Assembly: GCA_030685015.1 (NCBI GenBank) | Contig: JAUXWS010000071.1 | Coordinates: forward strand, 1 to 21,820 | DNA length: 21,820 nt | DNA from: a bacterium | GTDB lineage: Bacteria > CAIWAD01 | Direction: 5' to 3' | In this document: positions 4,031 through 18,114 of the stretch, piece by piece | How positions within the stretch are numbered: the first letter of the stretch is position 1 | Layout: each line of letters begins with the position of its first letter | Notes under the pieces: generated by a model | Told to the model about the DNA's origin: nothing | The model's input: the letters and a program-made list of their open reading frames with translations, nothing else | The model's database searches: none | Program-made: the position numbers and the translations under genes

Positions 4031-4753
4031 TCAGAAGATGATGCCGAACTTGAACAGCTCCACGTCGAGCAGGTAGTCCTCGCCCAGCAGGCCGTCGTTG
4101 CGCAGGTCCACGTCCTCGCCCCCGAAGTAGCGGCCCAGGAGCAGGTTGCAGTTCCAATAGAGCCGCGATGAACGGGCGCGGAATCCGAAACCCCCGTATA
4201 CACCCACCTTGTCCACGGTGAGCCGCTCGCCATCGTCCAGCTCCCAGTCGAAGGGATTGTTACTCGTCCGCCCGCTCAGCCAAGCCTGGCGCATGCCCGC
4301 CACCCAGTAGAATCCCGAGCGACGGCGGCTGAGATAACTGCGCAGTTGCAGGTCCACCAGCGTGGCACGAAAATCAGTGTCGTCATTGACACTGCGATGC
4401 CAGATGGGCATCACCACCTCCAGCCGCGAGCGCGGAGGGAACCAGATCAGGGATCCGCTGTACATGCGCGTGTCGCCCGCCGTGCTGGCCAGGGCCAGAG
4501 GCACGTTGACGGCGATGGCAAAGGCGCCGTCGGGGAAGGGATCGATCTGCAGGATCTCGCGCTTCAGTTGCTCCTGCCCCTTGAGCAGCTCCTGCTGCTG
4601 GACAAGCAGGGTGTCGAGCTTCTCGTCCATCGTGCGTGGGGCGGCCTGCTCGGCCGCGCGGGCACTTGGGACTAGGAGCAGCGCGATGAACAGGAGGAGG
4701 AGCACCGGACCAGCTTGTTCCATCAACGGCAGGGGAGGTCTGAATGCCTTCAT
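4031..4753 (-). CDS. Secreted/outer-membrane protein of unknown function with coiled-coil N-terminus
   Basis: 240 residues. I do not recognise the family. Visible parts are a signal peptide with a long hydrophobic core (PVLLLLFIALLLVPSARA, cleavage probably just after ARA near residue 33) and then a Gln/Leu/Lys-rich heptad-like segment (MDEKLDTLLVQQQELLKGQE, continuing with QLKREIL). The remainder is rich in alternating hydrophobic and aromatic strands (GSLIWFPP, LQLRSYL, GFYWVAGMRQAWL, VGVYGGFGF, LYWNCNLLLG) and ends in a hydrophobic FGIIF, the pattern of a small outer-membrane beta-barrel. The start ATG at 4751-4753 is preceded by GAGGAAAC. It lies 41 bp downstream of the UPF0316 gene on the same strand, so the two are a likely pair. 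A periplasmic beta-rich protein is the alternative. Confidence 0.7.
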   Translation of the reverse strand: MKAFRPPLPLMEQAGPVLLLLFIALLLVPSARAAEQAAPRTMDEKLDTLLVQQQELLKGQEQLKREILQIDPFPDGAFAIAVNVPLALASTAGDTRMYSGSLIWFPPRSRLEVVMPIWHRSVNDDTDFRATLVDLQLRSYLSRRRSGFYWVAGMRQAWLSGRTSNNPFDWELDDGERLTVDKVGVYGGFGFRARSSRLYWNCNLLLGRYFGGEDVDLRNDGLLGEDYLLDVELFKFGIIF

Positions 4754-4794: not shown

Positions 4795-5364
4795 CTATTT
4801 CTTTTTCATCCAGGCCCGCCACCCGGTCGCGCTGGGTAGCGGCAGGGGCTGCATTGTACTGCTTTCGAAGGCTGGTTCCACCACAAAGAAGAGCTTGGGA
4901 TCGATCCGGCGGCCCAGCTCCACCCAGCGTGCCACGTCCTTGCGCTCGCAGAGGAAGTAGAGGAGCAGGCGCTCCCCGTCCCGCCCCTCGCCCCGGAAGA
5001 CGGTGACGGGCTGTCCGGCTTCGCGCAGTTGACGGGCGATCTCCCCTCCCTCGGCGGAGATGATGCGCAGGACTCGCCGACCCATGGCCAAGCGCCGCTC
5101 CACCAGGATGCCCACGGCGTTGCCCGAGGCGAAACCTCCCGCGTACATGAGCAGGATGAACGGATTGTGCGAGGCCGTCTGGATGACCTGGCTGATGGCG
5201 AAGACCCAGATCAGCACTTCGAAGAAGCCCAGCACCACCGAGATGCGGATGTGGCCCGCCACCACGGCCAGGGTGCGCACCGTTCCCATGGACACGTCGA
5301 TGATGCGCAGGAGGAAGACGAGCAAGCCCAGCTGCCAGGGGGAAAGCAGGTTCAGCCAATCCAT
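4795..5364 (-). CDS. UPF0316 / DUF2179-domain inner-membrane protein
   Basis: 189 residues. The N-terminal half has three predicted membrane segments: about 12-37 (GLLVFLLRIIDVSMGTVRTL), about 43-63 (VLGFFEVLIWVFAIS) and about 70-92 (FILLMYAGGFASGNAVGILV). These are followed by a soluble C-terminal domain with RVLRIISAEG and LLLYFLCERKD. The order (R-x-x-D-x-S-x-G-T-x-R-T in helix 1, FFEVLIWV in helix 2, G-x-x-x-G-N-x-x-G in helix 3, then a DUF2179-like domain) matches the UPF0316 family, whose function is not established. The start ATG at 5362-5364 has GGAGG upstream. It precedes the coiled-coil/barrel protein gene and is divergent from the M2-like gene. Confidence 0.85.
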   Translation of the reverse strand: MDWLNLLSPWQLGLLVFLLRIIDVSMGTVRTLAVVAGHIRISVVLGFFEVLIWVFAISQVIQTASHNPFILLMYAGGFASGNAVGILVERRLAMGRRVLRIISAEGGEIARQLREAGQPVTVFRGEGRDGERLLLYFLCERKDVARWVELGRRIDPKLFFVVEPAFESSTMQPLPLPSATGWRAWMKKK

Positions 5365-5517
5365 CACGCGCCTCCATGATCCGGGCCGGGCCGTCCATCG
5401 CCGGCCTCCGCCACCGTCAATGTGCCGCCCGCGTGCCGCCCCCGCAAGCGGGCCGCCGGGGCGAGCCCTACCTTGAGTGTGCGCAGCGGAGGTGCAAGGG
5501 CGGCAAGGAGGAGAAGG
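5365..5517. promoter_or_regulatory. Divergent intergenic region between the UPF0316 gene and the M2-like gene
   Basis: 153 bp separate two divergent starts, so promoters for both should lie here. TACCTTG at 5469-5475 is 43 bases before the 5518 start and resembles TACATTG ahead of the flavoenzyme gene. No consensus -35 is visible. The strong AAGGAGGAG ribosome site is at 5506-5514. Confidence 0.35.
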
Positions 5518-7089
5518 ATGTTCATCGATGAAGCCCGCCATCTGGTTCGCGCCCATGCCATGGCGCAGCGGGAGTTGTTGACGGCCTGGGAGAGAATCCG
5601 GCTGGACTTCCTGGGCGGGCGGGCGGATGGCGAGGCGATGGTGGCCGCCCGCCAGGCCCGTTGGCGGACCCAGGCCGATCAAGCTCTCTTCCTCCAGGTG
5701 CAGGAGGCCGCGCTGGGATCCATGGATGACGAAGGCCTGGACCAGCAGGTGCAGGCCCTCTTCATGGAACTGGCGGCCTGTCATGGCGAGCCCGCACTCC
5801 GCCAGCGGCAGGACCGCCTGCTCACGGGTCTGGAATCCCGTTGGCTGGAGCGGCCGGCACCGGCCGGGGGCCGCCCCATGGACCGGCGCGATCTGGAGCA
5901 GGTGCTGGCCCGGGCGCGGTTGGGGGAGGAACGCCAGGTGGCCTGGGTGGCCTTGTGCGCCCCGGTCCGTGCCGGAGCCGCCGAGGCTTTGGAGTGGCTG
6001 CGGCTGGAATCGATGGCGGCGCAGGCGGCGGGCTATCCCTCGCTGCCCGAGGAGCAGGGCCAGCGCCTGGGCCTGTCTCCCGGCGCCGTGAGGGTCTGGC
6101 TGGACCTCTTGTCCTCCACGTTGGGAGCCGGGATCCGGCGGGCGGCCGGCGAGGTGCTGGCGGAGACGGCCTCCGGCCTGGGACGAGCGGCCGACCAGCT
6201 GGACACGGCCGCCCTGGGCGCCCTCTACCCGGCCGGGACGGCAGGACGCGCCGGCCTGGGCGAGCCCGCCTTCCTGCAAGCGCTGCAGGAACGCGACCCG
6301 CTCGAGCTGCTGCGCGACAGCGCTGATTTGCTGGGCCTGGAGATTGAGGAAGCGCTGGCTCGCTGGGTCACGCGTGTTCCCTGGCTTCCCGCCGCCCTGG
6401 AGGAGATGGTGGAGGGGCCGGCGGGATACTGGCCGGTCGTGCTCTTGCATGTGTCGCCTGACTGGCGGTGCGCCTGCACCGCCCTGACGGCGCTGGGGCG
6501 GACTCTGGGCTGCCGGGCCGGCGCCGTGCTCGCGCGGCGGGCGGACGAGGAGGAGGGACCGGCCTTCCCCCTGGAGGCCCTGTTGGGCGAAACCTTCGGC
6601 GCCATGCTGGCCCGCTTGCCGGGTTCCCCGGACTGGACGGAGCGTTTGCTGGAACAGCGGCATCCCGCCGCCGGAGCTTGGTGGCAACGCCGCGCCCTGC
6701 TGGCGCTGGGGGAGGACCTGCTACGCCTGGAGTGGCTGATCCAGGCCCCGGACCTCTCCCTGACCGAGGCCGGGGAGCTGTGGCTGGTCCTGCGCGAGCA
6801 ATGGCTGGCGCTGCCGGCCCGTTCGGATGAAGCGGAGCTGTGGGCGGCGGACCCCCTGCTGACCCTGCGTCCCCGGGAGGCCGTCCAGCGGGTGGCCGCC
6901 CGGATCCTGGGCGCCTCGCTGCGGGCCGAGTGGGGCGGTTCCGAGCCTGGTGCGGATCCGGAACTGGGCGGCCGCCTGCTCGACGCCTGCACGGCGCCCC
7001 CCGCGCCCGAGGGCTGGGGCGAGGCGCGGGAGCGGCTGCTGGACCTGCTCGATCCGCGCCACCTGGCGGCGGAGAGCGGCATCGCCTGA
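5518..7089 (+). CDS. M2/M3-type metallopeptidase homologue lacking the HExxH zinc site (pseudoprotease)
   Basis: 523 residues, cytosolic, no signal peptide. From family memory, the whole length follows the layout of bacterial M2 (ACE-like)/M3 peptidases. A segment RDLEQVLARARLGEERQVAW plus a following Leu-rich helix and AAGYPSL matches the 'eL...s.D...R..aW.A...vg' and 'RNe.Ar.lGy' region. DPLELLRDSADLLGL (near 262-276) matches the helix before the active site. However, the catalytic HExGH position reads TALGR (324-328); the downstream Glu is kept as E358 in GETFGAML, and the C-terminal PVYYHNYLLG-like segment is replaced by PREAVQRVAARILG. It therefore probably cannot bind zinc or cleave peptides. 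The start ATG at 5518 has a strong AAGGAGGAGAAGG, and the frame is intact. clpB follows after 139 bp on the same strand. A role as a substrate-binding or adaptor protein is inference only. Confidence 0.75.
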   Translation: MFIDEARHLVRAHAMAQRELLTAWERIRLDFLGGRADGEAMVAARQARWRTQADQALFLQVQEAALGSMDDEGLDQQVQALFMELAACHGEPALRQRQDRLLTGLESRWLERPAPAGGRPMDRRDLEQVLARARLGEERQVAWVALCAPVRAGAAEALEWLRLESMAAQAAGYPSLPEEQGQRLGLSPGAVRVWLDLLSSTLGAGIRRAAGEVLAETASGLGRAADQLDTAALGALYPAGTAGRAGLGEPAFLQALQERDPLELLRDSADLLGLEIEEALARWVTRVPWLPAALEEMVEGPAGYWPVVLLHVSPDWRCACTALTALGRTLGCRAGAVLARRADEEEGPAFPLEALLGETFGAMLARLPGSPDWTERLLEQRHPAAGAWWQRRALLALGEDLLRLEWLIQAPDLSLTEAGELWLVLREQWLALPARSDEAELWAADPLLTLRPREAVQRVAARILGASLRAEWGGSEPGADPELGGRLLDACTAPPAPEGWGEARERLLDLLDPRHLAAESGIA

Positions 7090-7228: not shown

Positions 7229-9862
7229 ATGTTGTCCATGGACCGCTTGACGCACCGCACGCAGCAGAGCCTGGAACAGGCGGCCGGGCTGGCCGCCACC
7301 CTGGGCCACCAGCAGGTGGAGACGAATCATCTGTTGCGCATCCTGGCGGGCGACCCGCAGAGCGTCCTCGCCACCGCTCTCAGGAAGCTGGGTCTTTCCC
7401 TCCCCGAGGCGCTGGCCGCCTTCGACGAGCGTGTGGCCCGCCTGCCCAAGGTGGAAGGGGCCGGGCAAGTCTACCTCTCGCGGCTCCTCACCCGCCTGCT
7501 GGGGGAGGCCAAGAATCAAGCCGACCGCCTGGGTGACGAGTACGTGGCGACCGAGCACATCCTCCTGGCCGCGCTGGAGGAGTCGGCGCGCACCCGGGCG
7601 GAAGACGGCGCCGGCTGGCTGCGCGCCCATGGTCTGGACGCCGAGACCCTGCTCCGCCTGCTCAAGGAGATCCGCGGCCACCAGACGGTGAGCGATCCCG
7701 ACGCCGAATCCCGCTACCAGGCCCTCTCCAAGTACGCCGTGGACCTGGTCGAGCAAGCGGAGAAAGGCCGCCTCGATCCCATCATCGGGCGCGACGAGGA
7801 GATCCGCCGCGTCATCCAGGTCCTCTCCCGTCGCACCAAGAACAACCCCGTCCTCATCGGGGATCCGGGTGTGGGCAAGACGGCCATCGTCGAGGGCATC
7901 GCCCTGCGCATCAAGGACGGCGACGTCCCCGAGAGCATGAAGGACAAGCGCCTGCTCGCCCTCGACCTGGGCGCGCTGGTGGCCGGCGCCAAGTTCCGCG
8001 GCGAGTTTGAGGAGCGCCTCAAGGCGGTGTTGAAGGAAGTGGCCCGCTCGGAGGGACGCAGCATCCTTTTCATCGACGAGCTGCACACGGTGGTGGGAGC
8101 GGGGGCCGCCGAGGGCTCCATGGACGCCGCCAACTTGCTCAAGCCGATGCTGGCCCGCGGTGAGCTGCGCTGCATCGGCGCCACTACCACGGCCGAGTAC
8201 CGCAAGCACATCGAGAAGGACGCCGCCCTCGAGCGCCGTTTCCAACCGGTCATGGTGGCGGAGCCAGACGCCGAGAGCACGATCAGCATCCTGCGCGGAC
8301 TCAAGGAGCGCTACGAGCTGCATCACGGCATCCGCATCAAGGACGCCGCCCTGGTGGCGGCCGTGGAGCTGTCCGGCCGCTACATCGCCGACCGCTTCCT
8401 GCCGGACAAGGCCATCGACCTGATGGACGAGGCGGCCAGCCGGTTGCGCGTCCAGATCGACTCGCTGCCCGAGGAGCTGGACGAGACGGAGCGGCGTGTC
8501 CGCCAGCTGGAGATCGAGTCCCGCGCCCTGCGGCTGGAGGATGACAATGAGAGCCAGGAACGTCTGGTGGCCGCCGAGCGGGAACTGGTCGACCAGAAGA
8601 GCGTGGCCGCCGCCCTGCGCGACCAGTGGCAGCGGGAGAAATCCCACATCCAGCAGTTGAGCGACGTCAAGGAGCGCATCGAGAAGACGCGCCTCGAGCT
8701 GGAGGAGGCCGAGCGTCGCGGCGACTACGACCTCGCGGCCCGCCTCACCCACGGCACCCTGCGCCAGCTGGCTGGGGAGAAGGCGGAGCGCGAGCGCGCC
8801 CTGGATGAGGCGCGCCGGGAGCATGGCCTGCTCAAGGAGGAGGTGGGGGCGGAGGACATCGCCGAGGTGGTGTCGCGCTGGACGGGCATCCCCGTCACGC
8901 GGCTGGTGGAGAGCGAGCGCGACAAGCTCTTGCATCTCGAGGACCGCCTGCGCCGCCGGGTGGTGGGCCAGGATCGCGCCCTGGAGGCGGTGGCCGCCGC
9001 CATCCGCCGCAGCCGCAGCGGACTGGCCGATCCCAACCGCCCGCTGGGGAGCTTTCTCTTCCTGGGCTCGACGGGCGTGGGCAAGACGGAACTGGCCAAG
9101 GCCCTGGCCGAGGAACTCTTCGACGACGAGCGGGCCTTGTTGCGATTCGACATGAGCGAGTACATGGAGAAGCACTCGGTGAGCCGGCTCATCGGCGCCC
9201 CGCCCGGCTACGTGGGCCACGAGGAGGGCGGCCAGCTCGCGGAGGCCCTGCGCCGCCACCCCTTCTCCGTGCTGCTCTTCGACGAGATCGAGAAGGCCCA
9301 TCCGGACGTGCTCAACGTCCTGCTCCAGCTGCTCGACGACGGGCGCCTCACCGATGCCAGGGGCCGTCTTGTGCGGGGCACCAACTGCGTCCTCATCATG
9401 ACCTCCAACCTGGGCGGGCAGCGCATGGCCGAGCGCCTGCGCGGACAGCCCGGCGCCGATCCCCTGCTGGCCGGCATGGAGCTGGAGGAGGAGGTGCTGG
9501 AGCTGCTGCGCGCCACCCTCAAGCCGGAGTTCCTCAACCGCATCGACGACGTGGTTGTCTTCCGGTCGCTGGACCGCGCGACCCAGGCCCGCATCGTGGA
9601 CCTGCAGCTGGACCGGGTCCGTGCCCGGCTGGCTCCGCACAAGGTAGAGCTGGAGGCGGAGCCGGCAGCGCTTGAGCGCCTGGCCGAGCTGGGCTTCGAC
9701 CCCGTCTACGGGGCGCGGCCCGTCAAGCGCCTTATCCAGAAAGAGGTGGTGGATCGGGCCGCCCAGCTCTTCATCTCGGGAGGGATTCAAGGCGGACAGC
9801 ATCTGCGCCTCGCCTGTGACGGGGCGGGGGGCTTCTCCTTGCGGCCTGTCCCCCCGGCCTGA
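7229..9862 (+). CDS. clpB: ATP-dependent protein disaggregase ClpB
   Basis: 877 residues, a hexameric AAA+ chaperone that pulls polypeptides from aggregates together with DnaK. The order is a Clp N-domain (two repeats, about 1-145), then AAA-1 with Walker A GDPGVGKT (211-218), Walker B FIDELH and the pore loop [11 protein letters not shown] long coiled-coil M-domain rich in Arg, Glu and Leu follows (about 410-530). AAA-2 has Walker A GSTGVGKT (613-620; Ser where Pro is common), pore loop [12 protein letters not shown], Walker [11 protein letters not shown] and the C-terminal FLNRIDD and YGARPVKR sensor region. The M-domain identifies ClpB rather than ClpA/ClpC. The start ATG at 7229 has AAGGAG seven bases upstream; the in-frame ATG at 7238 is less well spaced. 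It is preceded by the M2-like pseudoprotease gene. Confidence 0.97.
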
Positions 9863-10153: not shown

Positions 10154-10915
10154 ATGAAGCCGGTTTTTCTGGTGAGCGACATCCATGCCGGAATCCGCGA
10201 CGACGGGGACGAGGCCCCCCGCCTGGCGGATTTCCACGCCTTGCTGGAGCGGGCCCGGAGCGAGGGTTCGGAGCTGGTCGTGCTGGGCGACCTCTTCGAC
10301 TTCTGGTTCCAGTGGCGGGAAGTGGTGCCCAGCCGCCACCTGCCCTGGCTGGAGGCGCTGCGCCAGACGACGCGGGGAGGCCTGCCCGTCACGCTCCTGC
10401 CGGGCAACCACGACTTCCACCTGACCGGCCTGCTGGAAAGCCATGTCGGCCTGCACCTGCCCGGCGACGGGGAGCGGCGCGACCTGCTGGGGACCCGCGC
10501 CCTGCTGCATCACGGCGACGGGCTGGACCCCCGCGAGCGTGGCTACCGGCTCATGCGGAGGGTCTTCCGCAGCCGCTGGGCACAGGCCGCCTTCCGCTGG
10601 CTGCACCCCGACCTGGGCATGCGCCTGGCCGACCACATGGGCGGCGGCGACCGGCAGCGCACCTGGAGCGGGGAGGACTTGTGCGCCTACCTGCGCCGGG
10701 CATTGCCGGAGGTGCTGCGGGAGGATGACGGCCTCATGGTCATGGGCCACGTCCATGCGGCCGGCCGCTTCCATTGGCGGCAAACGCTGGTGGTCACCCT
10801 GCCTCCCTTCATGAGTCCGGCCCGCGGCCACGCCACCTGGGACGGTGCGGAGTTGGCCTTCCATTACCTGCATCCCCATCTGGCGGTGGATGCCGTCGAG
10901 GAGAGCCTGGCATGA
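10154..10915 (+). CDS. lpxH: Calcineurin-like phosphoesterase, probable UDP-2,3-diacylglucosamine diphosphatase (LpxH-like)
   Basis: 253 residues. A metallophosphoesterase with all metal-site blocks: SDIH (D9, H11), GDLFDFW (D46, D49), GNHD (84-87), HHGD (119-122) and GHVH (198-201). The stretch ERGYRLMRRVFRSRW and then LHPDLGMRLADHM follows the LpxH-type insert region, where the acylated UDP-sugar is bound. The predicted reaction is hydrolysis of UDP-2,3-diacylglucosamine to lipid X plus UMP in lipid A synthesis, at the inner face of the cytoplasmic membrane. GNHD rather than the GNRD of E. coli LpxH points to a divergent subgroup, so another UDP-sugar or phospholipid substrate is possible. 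The start at 10154 is set by the motif position; I see no good Shine-Dalgarno sequence there. It overlaps the next gene by 4 bases (ATGA). Confidence 0.85.
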   Translation: MKPVFLVSDIHAGIRDDGDEAPRLADFHALLERARSEGSELVVLGDLFDFWFQWREVVPSRHLPWLEALRQTTRGGLPVTLLPGNHDFHLTGLLESHVGLHLPGDGERRDLLGTRALLHHGDGLDPRERGYRLMRRVFRSRWAQAAFRWLHPDLGMRLADHMGGGDRQRTWSGEDLCAYLRRALPEVLREDDGLMVMGHVHAAGRFHWRQTLVVTLPPFMSPARGHATWDGAELAFHYLHPHLAVDAVEESLA

Positions 10916-11676
10916 GCATCACCTGGGACGACCTGAGGCGTGAGCTGGAGCAGGGCGGTCCCGCCGCCGCCATGGACCTGGTGCGCAGCGGAGAGGACTC
11001 CGCGTGGATCGAGGGCTGGACGGTCCTGCTGCAGGGCGCCGGCCAGCAGCCCTGGTCCGGCCGCTCCTTCGACGCCTTGATCGAGTTGTATCACGCCGCC
11101 ATGGCCGATGCGATCACCCTGGCAGAGCGCCACCGCGCCGGGCAGTCGGGGCAGGCCGAGCGGCTGACCGACCAGGCCAACATCTGGTCCTACAACCTGG
11201 CGGCCGACTTGGCCGAATGCTGGCCCGGCGACGAGGCCCCGCGGGAGCGTCGCCACCTCGAGGCCGGCCTCCAAGCCGCGCTGGACTGCCTGGCCTGGCG
11301 CGAACAGCTGGACAAGGGGGATTTTCCCTTCGCCCTCGCCTGGTGGGCGCGCGGCATGCACGAGCTGTCTCTGGGCCGACCCAAAGAGGCCATGGCCAGC
11401 TTCTCCCGGGCCGTCGAGCGGGGCCGCGCCCTGGCGCGCGCCGAGGGACGCGACGAGGCGGCGACGGCCGACTCCGTCTACATGCTGCTGTTGAACGAGG
11501 GCTACCTGGGCCTTGCCGAGACGGCGGCCGGGATTGGCACCGGCCGTGAACGGCTGGAGCGCGCGCTGGCCGCCTTCATCGCCCAGGCGGCCAAACGACC
11601 GGAGGAGGCCGAGGACGCCGCCTTCGGGATGGACCAGCTGCGCTGGGTGGCCAAACGCATCCTCCCGGACGCCTGA
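10912..11676 (+). CDS. Unrecognised cytosolic alpha-helical (TPR-like) protein
   Basis: 254 residues, no signal peptide or membrane segment. I do not recognise the family. It is rich in Ala, Leu, Glu and Arg. The pattern looks like stacked helices, for example FALAWWARGMHELSLGRPKE followed by AMASFSRAVERGRALARAEG, which has TPR-like spacing. A Trp-rich N-terminal part precedes it (TWDDL, WIEGWTVLL, PWSGRSFDALIELYH). The start ATG overlaps the stop of the lpxH-like gene (ATGA), with GAGGAG at 10898-10903; the end overlaps the PBP start (TGATG). This tight coupling between a lipid A gene and a peptidoglycan synthase suggests an envelope-related role, but that is inference from position. Confidence 0.75.
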   Translation: MSITWDDLRRELEQGGPAAAMDLVRSGEDSAWIEGWTVLLQGAGQQPWSGRSFDALIELYHAAMADAITLAERHRAGQSGQAERLTDQANIWSYNLAADLAECWPGDEAPRERRHLEAGLQAALDCLAWREQLDKGDFPFALAWWARGMHELSLGRPKEAMASFSRAVERGRALARAEGRDEAATADSVYMLLLNEGYLGLAETAAGIGTGRERLERALAAFIAQAAKRPEEAEDAAFGMDQLRWVAKRILPDA

Positions 11677-15485: not shown

Positions 15486-15750
15486 CGGATTGGCCGGGTC
15501 GCCCGTCCATGCCGGTTTACACCGAGTCCTGTCAACGATATCCGAATATCTCAGTGTCAGCCCTGTTCGAAATCCGGCGTCCGGCCTGCTCCAATCTCTG
15601 TGCAGCAGGTTGTTAAGCTGTTGTGAGATATGCATATAGCAACCAAGGCTGGCTGGTCCATTCTTTGCAGTGCCATCATTCCCGATTGCTGTCACGCAAC
15701 GGGTCCTACAGAAAGCCATCCTATCGCGTCAATTATTGAAAGGGTACCCG
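15486..15750 (+). promoter_or_regulatory. AT-richer upstream region of the secreted 787-residue protein
   Basis: 265 bp with clearly lower G+C than its neighbours. It contains an imperfect palindrome GATATCCGAATATC (15537-15550), a perfect palindrome ATATGCATAT (15628-15637) and a possible promoter TTGTTA (15610-15615) with 17 bases to CATATA (15633-15638). The ribosome site GAAAGGG lies at 15738-15744. The secreted protein gene therefore probably has its own promoter. No terminator of the preceding operon is obvious. Confidence 0.4.
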
Positions 15751-18114
15751 ATGAGCAAGCAACTCCTGTTGACCCTGCTGGTGGCGGGCGTGGCCGGTGC
15801 GGCCGTCGTCACGCCGCCGGTGGTCCATCCCCAGGCCGCTGCGGGAAGGGTCATTCCGGTGACCGTCACGAATCTGGACACGGGCGTGTCCGAGCGTGTG
15901 GACCGCGACGTCTCCTATGATTTCAACGGCGACACCCAGGGCTGGAACAGCTTTGGCACCGGCCGCCAGGAGGATACCTGGCATGTGGAGCCGGTGGGAC
16001 ACGGCGGCACTTACACGAACACCTGGTGGAGCGCCAACGCCGGCGTGGGCGGCTACCTTAACAGCAGCTTCGTCTATCTGCAGACGCCGGCCATCAATCT
16101 GGCGGGGGCCGTCAACCCCACGCTCAGCTTCGCCCTGTACTACGCCACGGAAGCCCCGGGCGGCGAACCGGTGGGCTACAACGGCTGGGACGGCTGCAAC
16201 GTGTGGGCCTCCACCAACGGCGGCGCCACCTGGAACGTGATCAGCGGCACCCCGGCCTACACGGCCAGCAGCTCCTACGCCTTCGGCGTGGAGTTCGGCA
16301 TGGGGCCCAACATCCCGCAGTGGGGCGGCACGGCCGCGAACTGGGCCAACGCCAGCTTCAGCCTCAACTCCTTCGTGGGCCAGAGCGACGTGCGCCTGCG
16401 CTTCGTCATGTGCGCCGACCCGGCCTATGACTACACGGACAACCCGGCCATGACCGGCATGTGGGTGGACAACATCGTGGTGGCGGCGGCCGGCACCCTG
16501 TGGGCCGACGACGGCGTCAACAACACGGGCGGCGCTCCCGTCCACGGCTACTATGTCTACGGCAACGAATGGGCCCACACCGGACAGGAGTGGCGTTGCA
16601 CCAATGGCGTCAACCTGGGCTGCTACGTGGTTAGTCCCTGGATCACCTACACCCCGCCCTCCATCATCGAGGTGGTGCAGGACATTCGTTGCGACCTGCC
16701 AGACAGCGACGGCAACAACGACGGCTTCCTTGAGGACTACTTCTACATCGAGTGGACAGCCGACGGCAGCACCTGGACGACCCTGACCTACGACTACACA
16801 GGCGCTTCGCGTCCGGACTGGCAGAACCAGTACTACACCTACACGAACAGCGACGTGTTCAACGGCGGCCTGCGCTTCACCCGTTCCACCGGCACCCAGG
16901 TCAAGCTGCGCTATCGCATCCGCACGGACGGCGACAACGATGGCGGCCAGGGCACCGGCCTCTGGGTGGACAACGTGGAGGTGACGACGGCCAACGTGCC
17001 GACCAACGACCTGGCCATGAAGAAGTTCTGGATCAACTATCCGCGCAACGTGGGCGTGACCCAGTATCCCAAGGGCGAGATTTCCAACGAGGGAGCCGCC
17101 CAGCAGACCAACGTGCGCGCCTCCTGGACCGTCTACAACGCCACGACCAACGCCGTGGTGAAGGCCCACTCTTTCATGAACAACACGGCGGCCACCATCG
17201 ATCCACTCACCAGCATCCGCGTGGAGCAGACCTCGGCCGCACCAGCCACCTGGAAATGGACGCCGGCCACGGCCGAGAACTACACGGTGAAAGTCTACAC
17301 CACGCTGGCCAGCGACGCCAACCGCGCCAATGACACCCTGACGGTGCCGGTGTCCGTCTTCGAACCCAACATCGGCTTCCTCCGGTACGACTACAGCACC
17401 TCTTCGGCCTGGACCCTTTCCCAGAACGACGGGGAGGACGGTGCCCTGGTCCGCTACGATCCCATCAGCGAGCCCTGGACGGCCCAGTTCCTCTTCGCCC
17501 GTCTCTACAGCCTCGTGGCGGGCGACCAGGTGAACATCGTGGTGCACGCCGCCGGCCCCAACGACGACACGCCGGGCGCCCTGCTGGGCGAGTACACGAC
17601 CACGGTCACGGGCCCCGAGGACGTCTACCCCAACTACCTGATCCGCTACGTGGGCACCATTCCGCACCTGCGCTGCATGGACCAGCCGGTGTGGGTGGGC
17701 GTGCGCACCAACACCCACAACGTCACCGGCGTGGTGGGCCTCTCCGCGGATAACGGCGGCCCCTACTGGGTTGGTCATACCTACCGCTACGACTACGAGA
17801 CCAACATCGCCACGCCCTGGAACGGCGACCTCAACATGTGGCTGCAGGTGGACTGGGGCGTCGAGTCCGAGATCCCCTTCACCATCGAGCTGGACGGCGC
17901 CCGCGTGGGCAGCAACTACGTCCTGAGCTGGAATTCCCCCGGCCCGGTGGACGGCTACCTGGTCTACCGCAGCGCGGACGGCTACTTCACTCCGGGAACC
18001 CCGGTGGCGAACCTGCCCAAGGAGACCACCACCTGGTCGGATCCCCTGGTTCCGACCGGCCGCTTCTTCTACAAAGTGGTGGGCTACAACGGCCTCTGTT
18101 CCGTCGCGGAATAG
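15751..18114 (+). CDS. Large secreted multidomain beta-sandwich protein, function unknown
   Basis: 787 residues. The signal peptide region is MSKQLLLTLLVAGVAGAAVV, with cleavage probably in the following Ala-rich stretch. Two MAM/jelly-roll-like modules follow: about 45-270 (YDFNGDTQGWNSFG ... GMWVDNIVV) and about 285-435 (WRCTNGVNLGCYVVSPW ... GLWVDNVEV), both closing with W-V-D-N-(I/V)-x-V. They resemble the non-catalytic modules of immune-inhibitor-A-type secreted proteins. Next come a CARDB-like segment (about 440-545), another beta domain rich in Trp/Tyr, and a C-terminal fibronectin-III-like module (YVLSWNSPGPVDGYLVYRSA, FFYKVVGYNG). No HExxH or serine-protease motif is seen and no clear sorting tail. 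The start ATG at 15751 follows GAAAGGG. Codons are strongly C-ending, which suggests good expression. An adhesin or surface-layer-like role is possible but unproved. Confidence 0.88.
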   Translation: MSKQLLLTLLVAGVAGAAVVTPPVVHPQAAAGRVIPVTVTNLDTGVSERVDRDVSYDFNGDTQGWNSFGTGRQEDTWHVEPVGHGGTYTNTWWSANAGVGGYLNSSFVYLQTPAINLAGAVNPTLSFALYYATEAPGGEPVGYNGWDGCNVWASTNGGATWNVISGTPAYTASSSYAFGVEFGMGPNIPQWGGTAANWANASFSLNSFVGQSDVRLRFVMCADPAYDYTDNPAMTGMWVDNIVVAAAGTLWADDGVNNTGGAPVHGYYVYGNEWAHTGQEWRCTNGVNLGCYVVSPWITYTPPSIIEVVQDIRCDLPDSDGNNDGFLEDYFYIEWTADGSTWTTLTYDYTGASRPDWQNQYYTYTNSDVFNGGLRFTRSTGTQVKLRYRIRTDGDNDGGQGTGLWVDNVEVTTANVPTNDLAMKKFWINYPRNVGVTQYPKGEISNEGAAQQTNVRASWTVYNATTNAVVKAHSFMNNTAATIDPLTSIRVEQTSAAPATWKWTPATAENYTVKVYTTLASDANRANDTLTVPVSVFEPNIGFLRYDYSTSSAWTLSQNDGEDGALVRYDPISEPWTAQFLFARLYSLVAGDQVNIVVHAAGPNDDTPGALLGEYTTTVTGPEDVYPNYLIRYVGTIPHLRCMDQPVWVGVRTNTHNVTGVVGLSADNGGPYWVGHTYRYDYETNIATPWNGDLNMWLQVDWGVESEIPFTIELDGARVGSNYVLSWNSPGPVDGYLVYRSADGYFTPGTPVANLPKETTTWSDPLVPTGRFFYKVVGYNGLCSVAE

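Follow-up and report, generated by a model that had tools for sequence, protein, structure and literature searches.

A putative M2 (ACE-like) pseudopeptidase maintained within one bacterial genus directly before clpB

The window, by which we mean the whole 21,820-nt stretch of bacterial DNA that was analysed, encodes what sequence comparison places as a full-length homologue of M2 (ACE-like) peptidases that has lost its active site, has been maintained and is restricted to one genus. We consider it probable (roughly 80%) that this is an M2-derived protein whose active site was lost in the ancestor of the genus and whose shell was kept for a non-catalytic job. The features on which the analysis bears are the following.

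4846..5373, minus strand: DUF5698/DUF2179 membrane protein gene, divergent, a conserved neighbour
5505..5511, plus strand: Shine-Dalgarno-like AAGGAGG, recognised in the sequence, with a 6-nt spacer to the ATG of the pseudopeptidase gene
5518..7089, plus strand: putative M2 (ACE-like) pseudopeptidase gene, ATG start, TGA stop, 523 aa, assigned by hhalign to an M2-like profile, with orthologues in two same-genus genomes
6487..6501, plus strand: codons 324-328, TALGR, at the HExGH position, zinc ligands and general base erased (alignment and residue table)
6589..6591, plus strand: codon for E358, at the alignment position of the Glu that serves as third zinc ligand in the M2 TTEA motif
6850..6897, plus strand: codons 445-460, with D445, L447, A455 and R458 where M2 has Lys, His, Tyr and Tyr (alignment and residue table)
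7229..9862, plus strand: clpB, 877 aa, with Clp_N, AAA, AAA_lid, AAA_2 and ClpB_D2-small, a conserved neighbour in the same order in L002 and L003/L008

The reading frame is intact, as the original prediction had it, with zero internal stops across its 523 aa, and the ribosome site described there is the AAGGAGG ending 6 nt before the start codon. GC content by codon position (0.815, 0.535 and 0.866) shows the pattern usual for genes of GC-rich genomes. The predicted placement directly before clpB was also borne out, the two genes being co-directional and separated by a 139-nt spacer. A consensus scan, which is little informative for the host organism, revealed no promoters or terminators around the gene. 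In the spacers between the pseudopeptidase gene and clpB of L007 and L008 we observed repeated CTGACAG/TTGACAG-like words, of which the window has one CTGACA, and these words are a possible candidate regulatory site. Further along the window are two genes whose products have no Pfam match: one at 10774-11676 (plus strand), encoding a protein of at most 300 aa between an lpxH-like phosphoesterase gene and a penicillin-binding-protein gene, and one at 15670-18114 (plus strand), encoding a probably secreted 814-aa protein (no match at E 0.001).

Single-sequence database searches miss the family of this protein, and it is profile comparison alone that places it. Searched by itself, the window protein gave no match in Pfam (best E 0.14, unrelated), NCBIfam or PDB sequences, and fell short of PF01401. 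When the alignment of the window protein with its two orthologues (hereafter, the trio) was compared by hhalign with profiles of 11 bacterial M2-like peptidases and of 17 M2-like sequences, the results were 97.6% (E 3.8e-12, 489 columns) and 98.1% (E 6.4e-14, 492 columns), respectively; ten column shuffles and the reversed alignment gave 0-0.2%, and a ClpB decoy profile 0.3%. The comparison set can be taken as bona fide M2, since 11 of its 11 members match PF01401 and its profile retrieves the structures of ACE and ACE2 with E down to 1e-42. Even without a profile, one active M2-like protein used as the query retrieves the G002 orthologue (phmmer against a small search set, 25 bits, E 6.6e-8), and the trio profile, run against 386 genomes, picked out 20 places outside the genus below E 1e-4, of which the 16 that were checked all lie in M2-like proteins. 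On this profile evidence, the window protein is a full-length M2 homologue whose similarity to the family goes beyond chance. The original prediction, which had spoken of an M2/M3-type homologue and proposed profile-profile comparison as a check, was therefore right about M2, but kinship with M3 found no support. M3 (PF01432) belongs to the same clan and shares the general helical plan of M2, but its profile shows no detectable similarity to the trio (0.4%) and the window protein has no PF01432 match; kinship with M32-like peptidases was likewise rejected (0.3%). AlphaFold2, run on the shallow three-row alignment with either the window protein or the G002 orthologue first, predicted helices at a pLDDT of only 42 and 44, too low for a usable model, and no relatives with which to enlarge this alignment turned up in scans of viral contigs.

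As for the active site, the zinc motif is erased, as had been claimed for the window protein. At the position of HELGH in the active M2-like protein L025, the trio has TALGR (window), HSLGE (G002 orthologue) and ELLGR (G001 orthologue), and HExxH, which might have shifted elsewhere, is absent from all three proteins. The later Glu that was said to be kept, E358, is a Glu in the window protein only; the orthologues have Cys350 and Arg319 at this third zinc-ligand position. The altered C-terminal segment that had been pointed out is confirmed by alignment, with PREAVQRVAARILG of the window protein standing in place of PVYYHNYMLG of bacterial M2 peptidases. The matches of the M2 profile to ACE structures give the correspondence of four M2 positions (Lys, His, Tyr and Tyr), which we take to be Lys511, His513, Tyr520 and Tyr523 in ACE numbering. 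In the trio, the Lys of AAKIH is replaced by Asp in all three proteins and its His by Leu, Gly and Ala; of the two Tyr of PVYYHNY that correspond to Tyr520 and Tyr523, the first has become Ala, Ser and Val, and the second Arg throughout. Some 54 distinct other relatives found with the M2 profile, ranging from M2 through M3-like, all keep HExxH. To judge from these alignments, none of the three species retains the catalytic or the substrate-anchoring site, and the predicted protein cannot act as an ACE-type peptidase because the zinc, catalytic and carboxylate-anchoring residues are absent.

The trio samples a single genus, and all three sequences come from draft genomes. The search for orthologues with the same loss and the same clpB neighbour, which the original prediction had suggested, yielded one in each of two same-genus genomes, 49% and 41% identical to the window protein, and a scan of GTDB contigs returned the same two (on DYSB01000010.1 and CAIWAD010000074.1). 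No orthologue was found in a sister genus of the family (G003) or in another family of the class (G004). All three species share a gene order in which the divergent DUF5698/DUF2179 gene is followed by the pseudopeptidase gene and clpB, whereas in G003 clpB has different neighbours and the DUF5698 gene lies on a separate contig. In the window (4034-4657, minus strand) and in G002, this block is preceded by the gene of an outer-membrane-like protein without a Pfam match, which belongs to the conserved block beyond DUF5698 and has its equivalent in L002. Phylogenetically, the trio is a single, long-branched clade (support 100/100), so one loss of the active site is the simplest account.

One rival reading is that the gene is a decaying relic, inactivated in the ancestor of the genus and now near-neutral, which time has not yet broken. 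Its rate of change lends this some weight: the protein changes at about double the pace of its neighbours, with NG86 dN/dS of 0.57-0.67 among the three pseudopeptidases against 0.27-0.35 for neighbour genes (one lpxH-like pair, at 0.55, stands above the others) and amino-acid identity of 37-49% against 60-77%, and its former catalytic positions are free to drift, the residues differing from one species to the next. However, dN/dS is below 1 in all pairs, codon positions 1 and 2 are more conserved than position 3, and blocks such as MFIDEAR are strictly conserved. Moreover, frames of 490-523 codons have stayed intact in three species at dS of about 0.9-1.1, although a neutral simulation, in which 20-41% of sites were substituted at random under the base composition of the gene itself, led us to expect 5-9 stops, with a probability of finding none of at most 0.003; the real genes have 0. 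The intact frames, the dN/dS below 1 and the missing stops together argue that selection acts on the protein, though less strongly than on its neighbours, and constraint on it is moderate. The relic reading is thus unlikely, and the three orthologues favour the maintained, genus-restricted M2 pseudopeptidase that had been proposed for the window protein and that the trio appears to represent.

Two further readings were weighed. Since the M2 scaffold is kept at full length, the trio might still bind C-terminal peptides in the manner of ACE, which is the strict form of the peptide-binding guess in the original prediction; yet the equivalents of the ACE substrate anchors are replaced in the trio, so that the ACE carboxylate pocket is gone, and binding of this kind is unlikely, more so than the relic. 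Alternatively, the proteins might be hydrolases that use another catalytic or metal site on the same fold, for which the charged residues conserved in the trio near the former cleft (R340, E344, E345, D445, R451, R458 and R462) could be invoked. But no His or Cys is invariant across the trio alignment, which makes a relocated zinc site unlikely and leaves no classical zinc or cysteine site, and we know of no M2-fold peptidase that uses another mechanism. This is the least probable of the readings weighed here.

The reading we favour, that of an M2 shell retained without catalysis, would proceed as follows. A soluble protein that lacks a signal peptide and has the helical scaffold of M2 peptidases would have lost its zinc site, its catalytic residues and its substrate-anchoring residues in the genus ancestor, and moderate purifying selection would then have retained the shell for a non-catalytic job. 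That job may be the binding of a protein partner, or a scaffold role, through conserved residues peculiar to the genus, namely the MFIDEAR N-terminus, R340/E344/E345 and D445/R451/R458/R462. The pseudopeptidase is unlikely to regulate an active relative, since no PF01401 match, and hence no active M2 enzyme, was found in any of the genomes G000-G004. The fixed place directly before clpB, which supplies a concrete candidate partner, points to protein quality control as a starting point, the connection to ClpB being conserved adjacency of co-directional genes within one genus only. We tentatively suggest, as a possibility well short of an even chance, that the partner comes from protein quality control, the pseudopeptidase being, for instance, a substrate- or ClpB-binding accessory. 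The bolder version, in which a bacterial ACE-fold protein has turned into an accessory that serves the ClpB disaggregase alone and without enzymatic activity, so far in this genus only, is more doubtful; if true, an inactivated peptidase would have given rise to a novel type of chaperone cofactor. On the subject of ClpB, we also observed, at G000:C59:67185-68141, a 1185-aa open frame, part of which shares 40% identity with residues 538-865 of ClpB; no obvious counterpart of this frame turned up in the four other genomes of the phylum.

Among known proteins, the closest are the bacterial M2-like peptidases of PF01401 (e.g. L025, L026 and L086), with which the trio aligns over its full length and to whose active members it is 14-19% identical. 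These active members keep HE(L/F/Y)GH, TEA and P-YY(H/Q)NY, none of which is found in the trio, and some carry a signal or lipoprotein sequence, which the trio does not. The characterised bacterial ACE is XcACE of Xanthomonas (PMC3235092). In the literature that we searched, with partial coverage, we found no description of an inactive bacterial M2 protein, and the words angiotensin and ACN-1 are absent from the main text of a 2024 review of metallopeptidase pseudoenzymes (PMC11266112). That three species of the genus retain the gene intact suggests a non-enzymatic job for the pseudopeptidase, one not described in that literature. Bacterial peptidase folds have been repurposed for sensing or metal binding in CspC (PMC6636752) and MamO (PMC4794232), but these belong to serine-protease families whose folds are unrelated to that of the pseudopeptidase. 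Parallels exist among animal M2 proteins retained despite missing essential active-site residues, namely ACN-1 of Caenorhabditis elegans, which is essential for moulting, and ANCE-2, -3, -4 and -5 of Drosophila (PMC1325048, PMC3235092). Whereas these are animal proteins, the Drosophila ones being described as secreted, the window protein is bacterial and has no signal peptide, and we infer that the loss in the trio was independent of the animal losses. The present case suggests that bacteria, and not just animals with their ACN-1 and ANCE-2 to -5, can retain the M2 scaffold for a purpose other than catalysis.
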